This document shows, piece after piece, positions 3,082-13,320 of a DNA stretch of 18,190 nucleotides. The stretch is taken from NCBI GenBank assembly GCA_001818835.1, contig MHKL01000003.1, positions 1-18,190 of the forward strand, in the 5' to 3' direction. The stretch comes from Candidatus Komeilibacteria bacterium RIFCSPLOWO2_01_FULL_45_10 (GTDB lineage: Bacteria > Patescibacteriota > Patescibacteriia > UBA1558 > UBA10009). Below the pieces are notes generated by a model. The model was not told the origin of the DNA, made no database searches, and was given only the letters and a program-made list of their open reading frames with translations. Numbering within the stretch: the stretch's first letter is position 1; every line of letters begins with the position of its first letter. A program made the position numbers and the translations under genes.

Positions 3082-4191
3082 CTACTGTCTGATGGGCATG
3101 ACAATGTAAAGATAATCGTCATCCCCTACCGGCTTAATCAGGCCGGGCGCCGTATTGGAAATCAGCTCTATTTTTATTTCTTCGCTGCCTAAATTATTTA
3201 AACCATCCAAAAGGTAACGGTAATTAAACACGGCCTCATTATCGTCGCCGGTGATGGCCGCCTCCACGGTCACCAAATTCTCGCCAATGGCGCTGTTGAC
3301 GGCGCTCACGACCAGCTCGCCTTTTTCAGCTTTAAAATCAAGCTTAACGTCGTTGATGCCCGGCTTACAAAAAAGGGAAACGCTTTTAACCACCCGGTTG
3401 AGTTCGGCCGTTTTAACTTTGGCCTGCGTTTTGCTCGTCGTCGGGATAATCTGCTGATAGTCGGGGTACTGGCCTTCCACCAGGCGGGAAACAAGCTCCA
3501 CTTCGTTATTCAGCTTAAACAAAATCTGGTTTTCATTAAGATAAATGGAAATTTCCTCGTCCGGGCTGTCGGTGAGAATGCGGTGGACTTCCTGCAAAGT
3601 CCTTAAAGGAATAATTAATTTTCTGTCTTCTAAGGCGGCGGTTGACAGCTTAACCTTTTTTTCGGCCAAACGATAGCTGTCGGTGCCGGCGATAGTCAGC
3701 GTTTTACCGGAAAAATTGAAGAAAACTCCGCTGATTTCCGGCCGCGACTCGTCCAGCGCCACGGCAAACATAGCTTGCGCCAGGGCGTTTTTTAAATCCC
3801 TTGATTTTAAAACGACCGATTCCTTTCTTTCCATTTCCGGGATCAAAGGAAAATCAACGGCCGCCGCACCTTTAATAAAAGTTTTATATTTGCCGCATCT
3901 TAAATAAATGGTTTCGTTTTCCAGCTCCAATTCAATATTCTCTTTTGGCAAAAGATTAACGTAATCGGCTAAAAGCCTGGCTTGAACCGTAAATTCCCCC
4001 TCTTTTTCCACCTTGCCCCTAATTTGGGCGGCAATGCCAATTTCCAAATTAGTGGTGCTTAAGCTGATAACGCCGCCCGTAACCCTAATTAAAACATTAT
4101 TTAAAATTGGTAGGGTGGCGTTACGGTTAGCCACGTGGCAAGTTAGGTTAAGGCCGCGGTTTAAATTCTCTTGGGTGCAGGTGAATTTCAT
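3082..4191 (-). CDS. dnaN: DNA polymerase III beta subunit (sliding clamp)
   Basis: A 369-residue protein, normal length for the family. The ring-shaped homodimer tethers the replicative polymerase to DNA. Family hallmarks are the N-terminal MKFTCTQENLNRGL, then LPILNNVLI, DFPLIPE, the GTDSYRLAEKK segment near the middle, and the C-terminal YLYIVMPIRQ, which lines the partner-binding pocket. Its ATG lies directly against the AT-rich part of the candidate origin. It is downstream of dnaA on the same strand, the standard dnaA-dnaN order. No Shine-Dalgarno site is evident. Confidence 0.98.
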   Translation of the reverse strand: MKFTCTQENLNRGLNLTCHVANRNATLPILNNVLIRVTGGVISLSTTNLEIGIAAQIRGKVEKEGEFTVQARLLADYVNLLPKENIELELENETIYLRCGKYKTFIKGAAAVDFPLIPEMERKESVVLKSRDLKNALAQAMFAVALDESRPEISGVFFNFSGKTLTIAGTDSYRLAEKKVKLSTAALEDRKLIIPLRTLQEVHRILTDSPDEEISIYLNENQILFKLNNEVELVSRLVEGQYPDYQQIIPTTSKTQAKVKTAELNRVVKSVSLFCKPGINDVKLDFKAEKGELVVSAVNSAIGENLVTVEAAITGDDNEAVFNYRYLLDGLNNLGSEEIKIELISNTAPGLIKPVGDDDYLYIVMPIRQ

Positions 4192-4473
4192 AAACTTATA
4201 ATTTATATAAATAATTGGTAATAATAGTAATAAGGGCGGTTGATAAGTTGATAAGTGGATTTTTTGTTTGTTTTTATTGTTGTTTTGGTTGTATTTTTTA
4301 GCGACGATTTGGTTGAAATCCTTGTTTATAATTTATAATAAGTTTGGGATAAGTGGCAAGACTTTATTTTAGCTGTTGAAAAGAATATTTTTTTAAACAG
4401 TTATTTTAAACTTTATCAACAAACTTTACTTAATCATCTGAATTATCTAAGTGGCTTTTTCACAAGTTAACAA
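4192..4473. other. Candidate replication origin (oriC) in the dnaA-dnaN spacer
   Basis: A 282-base, strongly AT-rich spacer between dnaA and dnaN. It contains DnaA-box-like 9-mers relative to TTATCCACA: TTATCAACA at 4413-4421 (plus, one mismatch), TTTTTCACA at 4456-4464 (plus, fits the relaxed TTWTNCACA), two tandem TTATCAAC on the minus strand (4239-4254), and TTATCCCAA on the minus strand (4344-4352, two mismatches). The AT-rich flank 4192-4218 adjoins dnaN. Gene context (dnaA, dnaN, divergent rpmH-rnpA-yidD-yidC) supports an origin. No perfect consensus box is present. Confidence 0.7.
4219..4254 (-). other. DnaA-box / GC-block / DnaA-trio unwinding element
   Basis: Read on the minus strand: two tandem TTATCAAC octamers (4254-4239), a GC block (complement of GGGCGG, 4234-4239), then five triplets TTA TTA CTA TTA TTA (4233-4219). 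The complementary strand of these triplets is 3'-AAT-AAT-GAT-AAT-AAT-5'. This matches the order and polarity of the basal unwinding system known from Bacillus subtilis, where DnaA spreads from boxes onto the trio strand. An AT-rich stretch follows toward dnaN. Confidence 0.6.
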
Positions 4474-5838
4474 CTACTGATGGTAAAGTCTTTGTTTGAT
4501 TTGGCTGATATCGTTTTTTAACTTCTCGTCCTTTTCCAGGGCTAAATGGATTTTATTGCAGGCGTGGATGGCGGTAGTGTGGTCGCGGCCGCCCAATTCC
4601 TGGCCGATAGAAGGGTAGGAGGATTTTATTTCTTCCCTCATTAAAAACATTACGATCTGCCTGGGGTTGACCAGCTCTTTGCGGCGGGAGGCGCCGGTTA
4701 AATCACTGATGGCAACGTCAAAATAGGTGCTGACCGCTTCAATAAGCTTGCGGGGGGTGAGGTTGCCTTTGGGCGTGCTAGCGGTGATGGCCTGCATTAC
4801 CTGCATGGTTGATTCCAGGGAAGGAATGGTATTATTCAGCTCATGGTAGGCCAAAATGCGGTTTAAGGAGCCCTCCAGCTCGCGGATGTTATTTTGGATG
4901 GTTTTGGCCAAGTATTCAATAATCCCCCGGTCTAAGGCCGCGTTTTTTTCCTGGCATTTGGCCTCTAAAATGGCAATGCGGGTTTCCAAATCCGGTGCCG
5001 TGATGTCGGCCGTCATGCCCCATTCAAAACGGGAAACTAGGCGCTGTTCAATATCGGGGATGGCTTTGGGCGGCCGGTCCGAACTTAAAACAATCTGCTT
5101 GTTGTTCTGGTGCAGGGCGTTAAAAGTATGGAAAAATTCTTCCTGGGTCTGCTCTTTGCCCGACATAAAATGGACGTCATCCACCAGCAGCACGTCCACA
5201 TTGCGGTAAAGGCGTTTAAAGCTTTCGGTTTGGCCGGTTTTAATGGCTTGGACGTAGTCATTGGTGAATTTTTCGCTATTGATGTAAAGAACCTTGAGGC
5301 GCGGGTTGGTTTTTAAAACTTCATTGCCAATGGCCTGGACCAAATGGGTTTTGCCTAAGCCGACCCCGCCGTAGATGAAAAAAGGATTATAGGCCTCACC
5401 CAGTTTTTCGGTAATGGCGCGGCCGGCGGCATGGGCCAGTTCATTGCCCTTGCCCACGATAAAATTGTTAAAGAGGTATTTTTTGTTTAAACCGAATTTA
5501 TTGGCCTCCACTGGTTCGCTGGCGTTTAGGGGAGTAGCGCTTACCCGGGCCGTGACCGCGTCCACCGACTGTTTTAAAGCCGCCTGTTTCGTGGTCTCGA
5601 CGATAAAACCGATTTTTTTAATGGAATCGTTGGTAATGTTTTTAATGGCCTGGGCGATTTGCTCGGCGTATTTTTTTTCCAGCCAGGCCTTGGTAAAGGC
5701 GTTGGGGGCGGCAATCACCAAATTCTCGCCGTCCAAGGAGGCGATAAAAGTATTTTTAAACCAAGTGGTAAAATTAGCTTTGCTGATTAAGAGTTCCAGC
5801 TCCCCCAGGACCGCCTGCCATAGTTGTTCATTATTCAT
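4474..5838 (-). CDS. dnaA: Chromosomal replication initiator DnaA
   Basis: A 454-residue AAA+ initiator that binds DnaA boxes and opens the origin. Domain I spans ~1-85 (LWQAVLGELELLISKANFTTWF), with a short linker to ~117. The AAA+ core has Walker A GGVGLGKT (157-164), Walker B LLVDD (217-221), sensor 1 LSSDRPP (251-257) and the arginine-finger region RLVSRFEWG (266-274). Domain IV contains the DnaA signature GGRDHTTAIHACNKI (416-430), the helix-turn-helix that reads the box. All catalytic and DNA-contact motifs are present. The ATG at 5836-5838 has no clear Shine-Dalgarno site. Confidence 0.99.
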   Translation of the reverse strand: MNNEQLWQAVLGELELLISKANFTTWFKNTFIASLDGENLVIAAPNAFTKAWLEKKYAEQIAQAIKNITNDSIKKIGFIVETTKQAALKQSVDAVTARVSATPLNASEPVEANKFGLNKKYLFNNFIVGKGNELAHAAGRAITEKLGEAYNPFFIYGGVGLGKTHLVQAIGNEVLKTNPRLKVLYINSEKFTNDYVQAIKTGQTESFKRLYRNVDVLLVDDVHFMSGKEQTQEEFFHTFNALHQNNKQIVLSSDRPPKAIPDIEQRLVSRFEWGMTADITAPDLETRIAILEAKCQEKNAALDRGIIEYLAKTIQNNIRELEGSLNRILAYHELNNTIPSLESTMQVMQAITASTPKGNLTPRKLIEAVSTYFDVAISDLTGASRRKELVNPRQIVMFLMREEIKSSYPSIGQELGGRDHTTAIHACNKIHLALEKDEKLKNDISQIKQRLYHQ

Positions 5839-5903: not shown

Positions 5904-5986
5904 AATATCCCCAAAAGAGGAAGAGTTGTTTATAAGCTGTTGATGATTTGAGTATAATTTTAAAAATCCCAAAACAATAGTTTTTA

Positions 5987-6069: not shown

Positions 6070-6210
6070 ATGTCAACCAAAAGAACCTATCAGCCCAAAA
6101 AAAGAAAAAGGGCCAGGACCCACGGCTTTAGAAGGAGAATGCGCTCCAAAAACGGCCGCCAGGTTCTAAAAAGAAGAAGAGCCAAAGGCAGAAAAAGATT
6201 AACGGTTTAA
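6070..6210 (+). CDS. rpmH: 50S ribosomal protein L34
   Basis: A 46-residue, very basic protein. It reads [20 protein letters not shown] and then an [21 protein letters not shown] tract, the L34 signature: KRTYQP, HGFRxRM, GRxVLxxRRAKGR. It is part of the large ribosomal subunit. It starts the operon divergent from dnaA, and its TAA is four bases before the rnpA ATG, so the two are probably translationally coupled. Confidence 0.98.
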
Positions 6211-6214
6211 GTTT

Positions 6215-6553
6215 ATGCTGCCCTCCAAAAACCGCTTAAGCAAAACCTCGGATTTTAAGGAATTGGCCTTAAAGGGGCGACCTTTTTATTCCTCTTTCCT
6301 GACTTTGAAGATTCTTAAAGAAAGCGGGCTGACCAGCCGTTTTGGGGTGGTGGTTTCGGCCCGAGTCAGCAAAAAGGCCACCGTCAGGAATAAGATTAAA
6401 AGAAGAATTACGGAAATTGTCAGATTAAATTTAAATAATTTGGCCGCGGGGTTTAAAATAATGATTTTGGTAAAACCGGCGGCCGCCAGCAAAAATTACC
6501 GGGAAATTAAAGAAGAAATTGGCAAGTTATTAAAGCAAGCCCGGATTTTATGA
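6215..6553 (+). CDS. rnpA: Ribonuclease P protein component
   Basis: A 112-residue basic protein that helps the RNase P RNA mature tRNA 5' ends. The N-terminal [13 protein letters not shown] and central [22 protein letters not shown] segments match RnpA. The RNKIKRR part is the family's RNR motif that contacts the catalytic RNA. Its stop overlaps the yidD start (ATGA, 6550-6553). Confidence 0.96.
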
Positions 6554-6783
6554 TTAAAACGGCCGTTTTAAAAGTGATTCGTCTATACCAAAGAACCTTG
6601 TCTCTGGATTCGGGCTGGTTTTCTTACAGACATCCCCATGGCTACTGCCGGTTTTATCCGCGTTGTTCCGAGTATTGTTATCAGGCCATTGCCAAGCATG
6701 GCATTTTAAAAGGCAGTGCCCTTGGTTTAAGGCGTATTTTAAAATGCCATCCGTTTAATAAAGGCGGAGAAGACAAAATATAA
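6550..6783 (+). CDS. yidD: Membrane protein insertion efficiency factor YidD
   Basis: A 77-residue protein with the family's cysteine and aromatic pattern: [38 protein letters not shown]. YidD is a small membrane-associated protein thought to help YidC insert membrane proteins. Overlaps with rnpA (ATGA) and with yidC (TAATG, one base) indicate tight coupling in one operon. Confidence 0.96.
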
Positions 6784-7511
6784 TGTTGATCGAAATTTAC
6801 AATGCCATTCTTTATCAGCCGCTCTTAAACCTGCTGGTTTTTTTCTATAACGTCATTCCCGGCCACGATGTCGGCATCGCCATTATTTTATTGACGATTT
6901 TTATTAAAGTTATTCTTTCACCGTTTTTCGTTCAGTCCATCAAAGCCCAGAAGCGGATGCAAATACTGCAGCCCAAGATTGACGAGTTGAAAGAAAAGTA
7001 CAAAGGCCAGCAGGACAAGCTGGGCCCGGCCTTAATGGAGCTTTACAAAAAGGAAAAAATCAATCCCCTTTCTTCCTGCCTGCCGCTTTTATTGCAATTG
7101 CCTTTTTTGATCGCGGTTTACCAGGTTTTCAGCGCCGGTCTTTCTAGCGGTTCTTTGGAAATGATTTATCCTTTTATTTCCAACCCCGGCACCATTAATC
7201 CGGTTTCTTTCGGCCTGATTAACTTGAGCCATCCCAGTTCCGTTATGGCGGTGCTGGCGGGCGCCGCCCAATTTTGGCAGTCAAAGATGATGATGGCCAA
7301 GCACTCAAACAAATCTTCAGCCGGCGGCATGGCTGGTCAGATGGGTGCCCAGATGACTTACATTATGCCCTTGGTCACTATTTTTATCGGCACCAGATTG
7401 CCGGCCGGCCTGACTCTTTATTGGTTTTTAATGACATTGTTAAGCGCTCTGCAGCAGCTGCTGGTTTTTAAGAAGATGGATAAGCCCCGCACCACTTTTT
7501 TTGATAAATAA
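6783..7511 (+). CDS. yidC: Membrane protein insertase YidC/Oxa1 family
   Basis: A 242-residue short-form YidC (Gram-positive/Oxa1 type, no periplasmic domain) that inserts and folds membrane proteins. A hydrophobic segment at ~31-52 (IAIILLTIFIKVILSPF) is followed by the charged cytoplasmic hairpin (QKRMQILQPKIDELKEKY). NPLSSCLPLLLQLPF then leads into the second helix, and the remaining helices end near 230. Lys42 stands where many homologues have the conserved groove Arg. Oddity: the last residues, KPRTTFFDK, are encoded by the left arm of a CCCGCACCACTTTT palindrome whose other arm lies after the stop. Confidence 0.97.
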   Translation: MLIEIYNAILYQPLLNLLVFFYNVIPGHDVGIAIILLTIFIKVILSPFFVQSIKAQKRMQILQPKIDELKEKYKGQQDKLGPALMELYKKEKINPLSSCLPLLLQLPFLIAVYQVFSAGLSSGSLEMIYPFISNPGTINPVSFGLINLSHPSSVMAVLAGAAQFWQSKMMMAKHSNKSSAGGMAGQMGAQMTYIMPLVTIFIGTRLPAGLTLYWFLMTLLSALQQLLVFKKMDKPRTTFFDK

Positions 7512-9700: not shown

Positions 9701-9775
9701 GCCCTCGTAGTTCAACGGACAGAATAGGACACTCCTAACGTCTAGATGCAGGTTCGACTCCTGCCGAGGGCACCA
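9701..9775 (+). tRNA. tRNA-Arg (anticodon CCT)
   Basis: A full cloverleaf with acceptor GCCCTCG/CGAGGGC, D stem GTTC/GAAT, anticodon stem GGACA/CGTCT (one A-C mismatch at the loop end), loop CTCCTAA with anticodon CCT reading AGG, T arm GCAGG-TTCGACT-CCTGC, discriminator A, and an encoded CCA at 9773-9775. Confidence 0.93.
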
Positions 9776-9804
9776 TGAACCGGAGCGAAGCGACTGGTTC
9801 ATGG
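9773..9804. repeat. Hairpin beginning at the tRNA-Arg CCA
   Basis: CCATGAACC (9773-9781) is perfectly inverted at 9796-9804, so the encoded CCA forms the first pairs of the stem. The loop carries GGAGCGAAGCGA, a motif recurring in neighbouring repeats. Confidence 0.7.
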
Positions 9805-9829
9805 CGAGTCAATTCCTGAGTTTCAAAAT

Positions 9830-9905
9830 GGGCTGGTAGTTCAGTTGGTAGAACACCGCATTCGCATTGCGGAGATCGAGGGTTCGAATCCCTCCCAGTC
9901 CACCA
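9830..9905 (+). tRNA. tRNA-Ala (anticodon CGC)
   Basis: Cloverleaf with acceptor GGGCTGG/CCAGTCC containing the G3-U70 alanine identity pair, D arm GTTC...GAAC, anticodon stem CCGCA/TGCGG with loop TTCGCAT (anticodon CGC), T arm GAGGG-TTCGAAT-CCCTC, discriminator A and encoded CCA. Confidence 0.95.
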
Positions 9906-9976
9906 CTCGACTCGCCCCTCGCTTCACTCGGAGCTCGCTCGTGGTCTTTGCCCTCATTTCATTCGGGCTTCGACCA
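9903..9976. repeat. tRNA-Ala trailer element copy 1
   Basis: Starts at the encoded CCA. Pairs visible: CCAC (9903-9906) with GTGG (9941-9944), and TGGTC (9942-9946) with GACCA (9972-9976) enclosing GCCC/GGGC. It aligns along its whole length with 10163-10235 after the other tRNA-Ala. A 10-base tandem repeat (ATTAATCTAC twice) follows at 9978-9998. Confidence 0.6.
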
Positions 9977-10040
9977 TATTAATCTACATTAATCTACGAG
10001 CGAAGCGAGCTCTACTTTAGGGCTAATTTCAGCCAAAATA

Positions 10041-10068
10041 TTGACTTTTTAACTATTTTGTGTATAAT
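10041..10068 (+). promoter_or_regulatory. Promoter of tRNA-Ala(GGC)
   Basis: TTGACT (10041-10046), 16 bases, TATAAT (10063-10068). The expected start is near 10075, 14 bases before the tRNA. Confidence 0.75.
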
Positions 10069-10088
10069 TTAGTTTACCTTTATTTAAT

Positions 10089-10165
10089 GGGGATATAGCT
10101 CAGTTGGCTAGAGCGTCTGCATGGCATGCAGAAGGTCAAGGGTTCAAGTCCCTTTATCTCCACCA
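10089..10165 (+). tRNA. tRNA-Ala (anticodon GGC)
   Basis: Cloverleaf with acceptor GGGGATA/TATCTCC including the G3-U70 alanine identity pair, D arm GCTC...GAGC, anticodon stem TCTGC/GCAGA with loop ATGGCAT (anticodon GGC), T arm AAGGG-TTCAAGT-CCCTT, discriminator A and encoded CCA. Confidence 0.95.
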
Positions 10166-11554: not shown

Positions 11555-12379
11555 ATGTTCCGCATTTCCATTCCAGAACTGGAGGAAAAGGCCTATAAAA
11601 TCAGGCGTCAGCTGATTGACCTGATTTATCAAGCCGGCTCCGGCCACCTAGACACCTGCCTTTCCTTGGTAGAGGTCTGGCTGGCTATTGTTTATTCCGC
11701 TTTTTTCAAGTTTGACCCTAAAAGGGGCGCTTGGGAAAGCCGGACACCCCTTTTCCTTTCCGAGGGGCATGCTTGCCCCTTGCAATACCTTGTCAATGCG
11801 GATTTGGGGTACTATCCGGTGGAAGAGGTTTTTGCCGGATTCCGCAAACCCCACACCCTTTTTCAGGGGCATACTGTGCGCCATCTGCCCTATGGTCTTG
11901 AGAACTCCAATGGCTCTCTGGGCATCGGACTGTGGCAGGCCTATGGTTATGTCTTGGTCAGCCAGGAGCTAGTTTTCTGCATTGTTGGCGATGGTGAAAT
12001 GCAGGAGCCATCTTCTCTGGGGTTTTTGACCGCGCCTTTCTTCATCAAACCGGCGCCGAACTTTGTTTTAATCATCAACAACAATGGTTTGGCGCAAGAT
12101 GCGGCTATTGGCCTTGGCCCGCTTCCTCAAGTGGCTGAACTTTACCGCTGGCAGATGATTGAAACTGACGGCCATGATTTTAAAGCGTTAGGTCGCGCCC
12201 TTCAATCAGCAATTGAAGAACCACATCACCCTTCTTTAATTGTCTGCCAGACCATTAAAGGCAAAGGCGGTAATCCCGCGTGGGAAGGTCAGCTTGGTCA
12301 CCATGGCGTGCCACCAAAGAATGAGGCAGAATATCAGGCCTGTCTTCAGGGGCTTGAGAACTCAAAGGGGCAATCATGA
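11555..12379 (+). CDS. Transketolase-like N-terminal (TPP-binding) subunit, divergent
   Basis: A 274-residue protein equivalent to the first third of a transketolase. GSGH (28-31) is kept, but the usual HPGGSLS reads HLDTCLS. Also visible are LSEGHACPLQYL (68-79), the TPP/metal motif GDGE (145-148) with NNN at 175-177, and the closing KGKG...HHG region (235-251). It should pair with the next gene to form a TPP-dependent enzyme moving two-carbon ketol units between sugars. A strong AGGAGG (11544-11549) sits six bases before the ATG, unlike most neighbours, and the codon choice looks less A/T-biased. It overlaps the next gene by ATGA. The exact substrate is uncertain because several conserved residues differ. 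Confidence 0.85.
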   Translation: MFRISIPELEEKAYKIRRQLIDLIYQAGSGHLDTCLSLVEVWLAIVYSAFFKFDPKRGAWESRTPLFLSEGHACPLQYLVNADLGYYPVEEVFAGFRKPHTLFQGHTVRHLPYGLENSNGSLGIGLWQAYGYVLVSQELVFCIVGDGEMQEPSSLGFLTAPFFIKPAPNFVLIINNNGLAQDAAIGLGPLPQVAELYRWQMIETDGHDFKALGRALQSAIEEPHHPSLIVCQTIKGKGGNPAWEGQLGHHGVPPKNEAEYQACLQGLENSKGQS

Positions 12380-13320
12380 ACATCACCGGAAAGATTTCTC
12401 TCAGAGAGGCCTTTGGCCAGGAACTTCTGGCGCAGGGCAAGATCTGGCCCGACTTGGTGGTTTTGGATGCTGGTACTTCCAACTCCACTTACAGCCAGCT
12501 GTTCGGCCAAATGTTTCCTAACCGTTTCTTCAATGCCGGCATCAATGAGCTAGGCATGATCGGCTTGGCAACAGGCATGGCTATGGCTGGCAGGAGAGTG
12601 GTCGCCTGCGATATGTCCATCTTTCTGCAACACGCTTATGCTCATTTGGTCACGGCAGCGCGGCAGGGCGACATTCATCTGATAGTCGCAGCTACGCACA
12701 CCGGCGTCACCGTTGGCGCAGACGGCGGCTCGGCGCAGGATGTGACTGACATTGGCCGGATGCGCTTAATTCCCAACTTCACTATTGTCGCTCCCTGGGA
12801 CGGCAACCAAACGCGCTTGGCTTTAAGGCAGATGCTGGAACAGCCCGGTTTGTACTATCTGCGTTTAAACCGGCCGGCTTTGCCGATTTTTACCTCGCTG
12901 GAAGACCCTTTCCAAATCGGCCGGGCTTATCGGTTGGTGGAGGGCAATGGACTAACCTTGATTGCCATGGGCGACATAGTTCACCAAGCCATTGAGGCGG
13001 CCGAGAAAGTGGGCGAAAGCAAAGTAGAGATCATTGGCGTGGCTACGGTTGAGCCGCTGGACGAACAAACTATCCTTGAATCAGCGGCTAAGACCGGGAA
13101 AGTCATCACCTTGGAAAACCATTCCCTTGTCGGCGGTTTATCTGAGCAAATTGCCGGTCTTTTGCGAGCATCGCATTTAGCGGTGCCACTTTGGCCAATG
13201 GCTTTGCCAAGGGAATTTGGCACTTCAGGCGAGCCAGAAGAACTACTCAAGCTTTACCAACTAGACGTTGATTCAGTGGTCAGGCTTTGCCAGGAGGTCA
13301 TCCAAACAGCAGTTCTTTGA
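12376..13320 (+). CDS. Transketolase-like C-terminal subunit, divergent
   Basis: A 314-residue protein with the pyrimidine-binding and C-terminal transketolase domains. The catalytic Glu that activates TPP is kept in FFNAGINELGMIG (Glu58). The conserved GxDGxTHQ segment reads GADGGSAQ (114-121), so the active-site His is Ala120. The C-terminal domain is normal (LIAMGDIVHQA, VEPLDEQTI, TLENHSLVGGL). It is translationally coupled to the N-subunit (ATGA overlap), and a terminator follows. It may be an altered-specificity transketolase-family enzyme rather than the housekeeping one. Confidence 0.85.
   Translation: MNITGKISLREAFGQELLAQGKIWPDLVVLDAGTSNSTYSQLFGQMFPNRFFNAGINELGMIGLATGMAMAGRRVVACDMSIFLQHAYAHLVTAARQGDIHLIVAATHTGVTVGADGGSAQDVTDIGRMRLIPNFTIVAPWDGNQTRLALRQMLEQPGLYYLRLNRPALPIFTSLEDPFQIGRAYRLVEGNGLTLIAMGDIVHQAIEAAEKVGESKVEIIGVATVEPLDEQTILESAAKTGKVITLENHSLVGGLSEQIAGLLRASHLAVPLWPMALPREFGTSGEPEELLKLYQLDVDSVVRLCQEVIQTAVL

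Follow-up and report, generated by a model that had tools for sequence, protein, structure and literature searches.

A predicted Bacillus-type unwinding module in the dnaA-dnaN spacer of a CPR bacterium of the order containing Candidatus Komeilibacteria

Where is the chromosome opened for replication in this uncultured CPR lineage, and is the module known from Bacillus subtilis present at that place? The window analysed here is a stretch of 18,190 nucleotides at the start of contig C3, which has 23,431 bases and belongs to a draft genome of 45 contigs (594,480 bases in total, completeness 72.75%). Open reading frames and Pfam domains give the gene order rnpA/rpmH - dnaA - dnaN (Table 1), which is the usual bacterial arrangement where the origin adjoins dnaA. 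A first-pass annotation had proposed that the spacer between dnaA and dnaN holds an oriC with an unwinding module of the B. subtilis type, in the same order and polarity. This proposal is supported by the gene order, the skew minimum of the contig and the conservation described below, and the spacer is very probably the unwinding half of a chromosomal oriC carrying a module of the Basal Unwinding System (BUS) type. The assignment of the organism to the CPR is also borne out: its order contains Ca. Komeilibacteria, and the spacer of a further genome of the order (G014) is that of RIFOXYD1_FULL_37_29. Elsewhere in the window, two adjoining, overlapping open reading frames (11555-13320) resemble, in their translations, the halves of a split transketolase, and three tRNA genes, Arg(CCT), Ala(CGC) and Ala(GGC), lie at 9701-10165.

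Table 1. Genes and proposed origin elements around dnaA (positions of the window)
Feature	Position	Strand	Basis
dnaA (454 aa)	4474-5838	minus	Pfam DnaA_N, Bac_DnaA, Bac_DnaA_C
dnaN, DNA polymerase III beta clamp (369 aa)	3082-4191	minus	three Pfam DNA_pol3_beta domains
rpmH (46 aa)	6070-6210	plus	translation identified by eye
rnpA	6215-6553	plus	Pfam Ribonuclease_P
YidC-type protein gene	6783-7511	plus	
dnaA-dnaN spacer, proposed as the unwinding region of oriC (282 bp, 24% GC)	4192-4473	minus	flanking ORFs
Upstream DnaA box of the BUS pair, 9-mer TTATCAACT	4246-4254	minus	conserved profile position -21, 25 relatives
Downstream DnaA box of the BUS pair, 9-mer TTATCAACC	4238-4246	minus	conserved profile position -13, 25 relatives
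GC block CGCCC	4234-4238	minus	sequence; G/C majority at profile positions -4 to -1, 25 relatives
Five DnaA-trios, TTA TTA CTA TTA TTA	4219-4233	minus	shuffle test, profile match
AT-rich stretch past the trios, up to the dnaN ATG	4192-4218	minus	AT 0.88-0.92, last 25-nt windows
Additional DnaA box TTATAAACA	4323-4331	minus	
Additional DnaA box TTTTCAACA	4374-4382	minus	
Additional DnaA box TTATCAACA, opposite orientation, one mismatch to TTATCCACA	4413-4421	plus	
Weak additional DnaA box TTTTTCACA	4456-4464	plus	
Second, weaker DnaA-box cluster, rpmH-dnaA spacer	5905-5913; 5927-5935; 5938-5946; 5949-5957	plus; minus; minus; minus	

Position, anatomy, conservation and strand specificity of the module, its uniqueness in the contig and in a relative, and the presence of the needed DnaA residues were computed here. 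The interval originally proposed is exactly the entire dnaA-dnaN spacer, and the succession claimed for its minus strand (two boxes, a GC block and five YTA triplets, followed by AT-rich DNA up to the dnaN ATG) is confirmed in the sequence. Read from dnaA to dnaN, two TTATCAAC octamers (4254-4247 and 4246-4239) precede CGCCC and TTATTACTATTATTA, and the dnaN ATG starts at 4191. Taken as 9-mers, the two boxes share one base, which sets a box period of 8 bp, and each has two mismatches to TTATCCACA. The first C of the GC block doubles as the ninth base of the downstream box; this nearer box begins 13 nt ahead of the first trio, and the strand bound at the trios reads 3'-AAT AAT GAT AAT AAT-5'. 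The AT-rich stretch that follows is likely the side on which the duplex is unwound and the helicase loaded.

The clustering of DnaA boxes expected of an oriC next to dnaA is found in both spacers flanking this gene. With up to two mismatches, the dnaA-dnaN spacer has six boxes against a shuffle mean of 0.77, a number reached by none of 1000 shuffles, and the rpmH-dnaA spacer has four against a mean of 0.46. The two clusters together make a bipartite origin possible. A spacer that is 76% AT also raises the prospect that the triplets are a by-product of composition, an explanation already disfavoured and in our judgement extremely improbable. A box with at most three mismatches followed at the right distance by at least five YTA triplets did not arise in any of 5000 dinucleotide shuffles of the spacer, while at least three triplets followed a box in 29 of the 5000.

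For the comparison with relatives, 53 genomes of the same family, order and class (the window's own included) were searched for DnaA, which was found in 48, and more loci were added later. Spacers were kept only if present, non-duplicate and 40-700 nt long, which removed 3 loci of the order, 2 of the class, 11 from other CPR and 15 from outside the CPR. The resulting set comprises 28 same-order spacers (window included), 23 others of the same class, 117 other CPR, 16 non-CPR and one unassigned; 'other CPR' is a catch-all that pools named CPR records with phylum-level genomes, some of which may belong to the window's class. A conservation profile of 42 positions was applied with each spacer and its near copies left out and with 200 shuffles per spacer; in the window, the match spans 4216-4257. 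The profile beats all 200 shuffles in 27/28 same-order spacers (the sole miss being L020), 18/23 of the other same-class, 62/116 of the other CPR (one short spacer was unscored), 13/16 of the non-CPR spacers and 0/1 unassigned. On the opposite strand, the corresponding numbers are 0, 0, 5, 1 and 0.

A strict rule demanding at least three uninterrupted YTA triplets after a box is satisfied by 12/28 same-order, 14/23 same-class, 23/117 other CPR and 7/16 non-CPR spacers; the opposite strand yields 1, 1, 7 and 0, and shuffle means are 0.3, 0.3, 0.8 and 0.1, respectively. A looser NTA rule discriminates less well because it matches 10/28 same-order spacers in reverse beside 22/28 forward, a point in favour of composition. 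Against composition stand both the strict rule, with its single reverse match in the order, and the profile, with none. In four relatives (L028, L107, L110, L137) the YTA triplets continue directly into the dnaN start codon, as in ...CTACTACTATG, and opening would therefore start at the dnaN ATG.

Uniqueness was examined with a 25-relative profile that excluded both the window and G003, a genome of the window's family that is assembled as one contig of 946,732 bases. The window site scores 42.1 bits; elsewhere in the 23.4-kb contig, the best independent site reaches 7.1 bits. Among the 752,000 bases of G003 that were scanned, the dnaA-dnaN site ranks first as well (26.0 against 15.7 bits for the next).

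At the scale of the contig, the cumulative GC skew points to the same place. On contig C3, one of the 45 of the draft, the minimum falls at 4095 of 23,431, beside the spacer. Of the two checks named by the first-pass annotation, conservation among relatives was passed, with 27 of the 28 same-order spacers; the other, which called for the skew of the full genome, agrees at the scale of the window's own contig. In G003 (752,000 of 946,732 bases), the raw minimum at 135,796 is ~71 kb from dnaA (206,575-207,936) and belongs to a flat zone extending to ~212 kb; the detrended minimum is at 211,653, and the maximum at 665,283 has its antipode at ~192 kb. This skew is consistent with an origin at dnaA and is broad, not sharp. 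A 40-kb sample of G017 shows a V-shaped local minimum at 209,228, beside dnaA at 210,194-211,561.

Could initiation nevertheless take place elsewhere, in the rpmH-dnaA spacer or kilobases away, with the dnaA-dnaN spacer serving as an auxiliary DnaA-binding region? The box cluster upstream of dnaA and the distant raw minimum of G003 would fit this idea, as would G040, a genome of the same class with a 17-bp dnaA-dnaN spacer. In a 40-kb sample of G040, the local skew minimum (798,383) is ~10 kb from dnaA at 808,854, and its origin may have moved away from the dnaA-dnaN spacer. Because of this short spacer and distant minimum, the linkage of module and spacer, although strong in the window's order, does not extend to every member of its class. 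For the window itself, initiation elsewhere is improbable: the skew minimum of contig C3 adjoins the spacer, and the runner-up to the module's profile match in this contig is as weak as stated above.

Several spacers of the class deviate. The 17-bp spacer (L029 and L103-L104, G040) is without the module, and a BUS in other parts of G040 was sought in the 40-kb sample, where the best profile matches, of 17.5 and 12.7 bits, look unconvincing. In family f24 of the same class, the spacer of L236 (G205) is only 22 bp long, and that of L273 (G294) has no clear trio within its last 120 nt. In the DnaAs of both loci, B. subtilis R202 and E228 correspond to Q and S.

The spacer might alternatively be mainly regulatory, with one or more dnaN promoters, boxes for autoregulation and triplets that are merely AT-rich promoter DNA. 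DnaA boxes near dnaA often have an autoregulatory role, and the minus strand of the spacer contains two sigma-70-like 9/12 matches (4470-4442 and 4359-4330). However, promoter-like sites between 4150 and 6250 occur at near-chance frequency (6 against 3.6 in shuffles, sd 2.0), and neither of the two matches overlaps the conserved block. Furthermore, a promoter would not predict the fixed-spacing order box-box-GC-(YTA)n. We regard a chiefly regulatory spacer as unlikely, to about the same degree as initiation elsewhere, and retain the reading as the unwinding half of oriC.

The octamers of the BUS pair had been taken as a sign of a lineage-specific DnaA box, and in this wording the claim does not hold. 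On the dnaA strand, TTATCAAC is the commonest of 13 octamers tested in the 28 same-order spacers (18 forward, 4 reverse). In the same spacers, TTATCCAC is enriched too, with 9 forward and 3 reverse occurrences against ~0 in shuffles, and outside the order it is the commoner of the two (14 vs 9 in other same-class spacers, 38 vs 19 in other CPR spacers). The recognition motif of DnaA is of the GGRDHTT type, and its R, D, H, T and T are invariant in 25 aligned DnaAs. Altered DnaA-box specificity, of which T. maritima is an example, would show in a changed recognition motif in domain IV and a missing standard box. For the present lineage, the invariant RDHTT and the enriched TTATCCAC speak against a box of its own with altered specificity, and a new DnaA specificity is not supported by these sequences. 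Overlapping boxes of period 8 were also considered as a CPR novelty and rejected, since by eye the non-CPR loci L175 (Moorella), L167 and L172 have period 8 as well. Period 9 is seen, again by eye, in L166, L170, L183, L184 and the CPR locus L121.

Among PDB structures, the window's DnaA best matches the B. subtilis protein in the BUS complex (8btg). In that structure, as given in the available text of PMC10721633, R202 and E228 touch the first base of a trio (G) and N187 the second (A), while the third lies between I190 and I193. In the alignment, the window's DnaA has N, V, I, K, E and R at B. subtilis N187, I190, I193, R202, E228 and R264. Apart from two conservative changes, the ISM pocket and the arginine finger (R264) of the BUS are thus present. 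The pocket for a central adenine is hence in place, and we infer with good confidence that the BUS mechanism can be transferred.

By analogy with B. subtilis, DnaA binding, oligomerisation, base capture and helicase loading can be pictured as follows. Domain IV of DnaA would occupy the two co-oriented, overlapping boxes, and the box-bound pair would seed an ATP-DnaA oligomer. Extending across the GC block, this oligomer would reach the complementary strand of TTATTACTATTATTA, where one ISM pocket after another would take two bases per trio (3'-R, then A). The duplex would thereby be opened toward the AT-rich stretch before dnaN, where the helicase would load.

In B. subtilis, the BUS lies in incC and consists of DnaA-boxes 6/7 and the DnaA-trios, according to the parts of PMC6669920, PMC10721633 and PMC8287927 at hand. 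The window resembles it in its location between dnaA and dnaN, two co-oriented boxes, a GC-rich gap, and the strand and polarity of the trios. In contrast to B. subtilis, the boxes are TTATCAAC instead of TTATCCAC and their 9-mers overlap by one base, the trios are mostly 3'-AAT-5' with one GAT, and R202, which binds the trio guanine in B. subtilis, is replaced by Lys. A B. subtilis origin with all trios 3'-AA is described as impaired (PMC10721633, available text). The definition in the available sections of PMC8287927 is a box within 16 bp of at least three NAN trios, with tandem boxes preferred, and a BUS is predicted there in 1755 of 2070 bacterial species. The window agrees with such predicted BUSs: its co-oriented tandem boxes lie within 0-16 bp of the trios, CGCCC forms the GC-rich gap, and the five in-phase YTA triplets, where at least three (3'-NAN-5', typically 3'-RAT-5') are asked for, correspond to 3'-RAT-5'. 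For C. difficile oriC2, the available part of PMC7561715 likewise describes, in the dnaA-dnaN region, a box cluster and a trio (CACCTACTACTATTACTACTATGA) with an AT-rich unwinding site downstream of them; there, unwinding by DnaA was found experimentally, whereas for the window it is predicted.

The main text of PMC8287927, in the sections available, never mentions CPR, Patescibacteria or Saccharibacteria. In Peregrinibacteria, also CPR, an origin located by GC skew likewise has DnaA-box-like sequences nearby; the available portions of that report (PMC4736985) name these and short repeats, and no DnaA-trio. Within the collection of papers searched, none joins DnaA-trio with Patescibacteria, candidate phyla radiation or coevolution, and DnaA-trio occurs together with Asn187 in PMC10721633 only. 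The BUS is a known type of module, and what our best reading adds is a member in the order that contains Ca. Komeilibacteria. Few origins have been studied in the CPR, a large branch, and the module would firmly establish a Bacillus-type origin opener there while supplying a compact, testable origin sequence for an uncultured lineage. It also lends support to the BUS being an ancestral bacterial trait.

A separate lead concerns residue 187 and the triplets of relatives. This residue is Asn in 157 of 216 DnaAs (first four locus sets) and V, I, T, S, A, G or others in many CPR relatives, mainly in the class nearest to named Paceibacterota, Nomurabacteria and Yonathbacteria records (L178, L165, L153). 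The triplets of non-Asn187 relatives keep TA every three bases, mostly with a purine (TAR) and not a pyrimidine (YTA) as the intervening base. Replacement of N187 together with TAR spacers is seen in the three records just named and in L185-L195, L277, L280, L292, L299, L353, L355, L360, L363, L365 and others.

A first set of 267 unique spacers contained 154 with a run of at least three TA after a box: 72 Y, 13 R and 9 ties with Asn, 9 Y, 40 R and 7 ties with other residues, and 3 Y and 1 R with Asp/Glu. A later held-out set of 29 spacers, mostly from the same clade and hence of little added independence, contained 17 classifiable runs (15 R and 1 Y with other residues, 1 R with Asn) and 12 spacers without one. 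Combined, and leaving out ties, Asp/Glu and one unread residue, Asn spacers are 72 Y and 14 R and non-Asn spacers 10 Y and 54 R, so that TAR triplets occur in 54/64 non-Asn vs 14/86 Asn spacers. With a looser run rule the association is weaker (Asn 96 Y and 27 R; non-Asn 21 Y and 61 R). The register differs as well. Of the 57 Asn/Y spacers with a downstream box (15 further ones are without), 38 have the first TA 5 nt past it, and of the 17 non-Asn/R spacers with such a box (24 further ones without), 13 have it 4 nt past; one Asp and one unread row are counted here among the 'non-Asn'.

When corrected for relatedness, a model with dependent rates is preferred (likelihood ratio 10.7, p ~0.005). 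Counts of independent sister pairs were not significant, either with 8 pairs (2.6 with, 0.1 against, 5.3 without difference) or with 9 (2.3, 0.2 and 6.4). The association is thus a lead with modest tree-aware support. Clear exceptions are Thr187 with YTA in L028, L107 and L110, and Asn187 with TAR in L303, L308 and L317, and the deviating dinucleotides in variant triplets did not fix their reading frame. We tentatively suggest, as a somewhat doubtful scenario, that the window's class keeps the standard trio code and that the Paceibacteria-like class recoded it with replacement of N187, from YTA to TAR and with a register shifted by one base. If so, the captured central A would become T in the B. 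subtilis frame, and the code for origin opening would have changed in nature with a matching change in the protein. In the available text of PMC10721633, the BUS authors deem deviant trios possible and leave as a question, in the Discussion, whether DnaA homologs recognise various single-strand sequences. Relatives whose triplets and adenine-capturing residue appear to have changed jointly would offer a direct test of it. Finally, one genome (L048, G031:C1:46429-47664) encodes a second, divergent DnaA-like gene with 40% identity over residues 9-426, its normal dnaA being located elsewhere in the genome.
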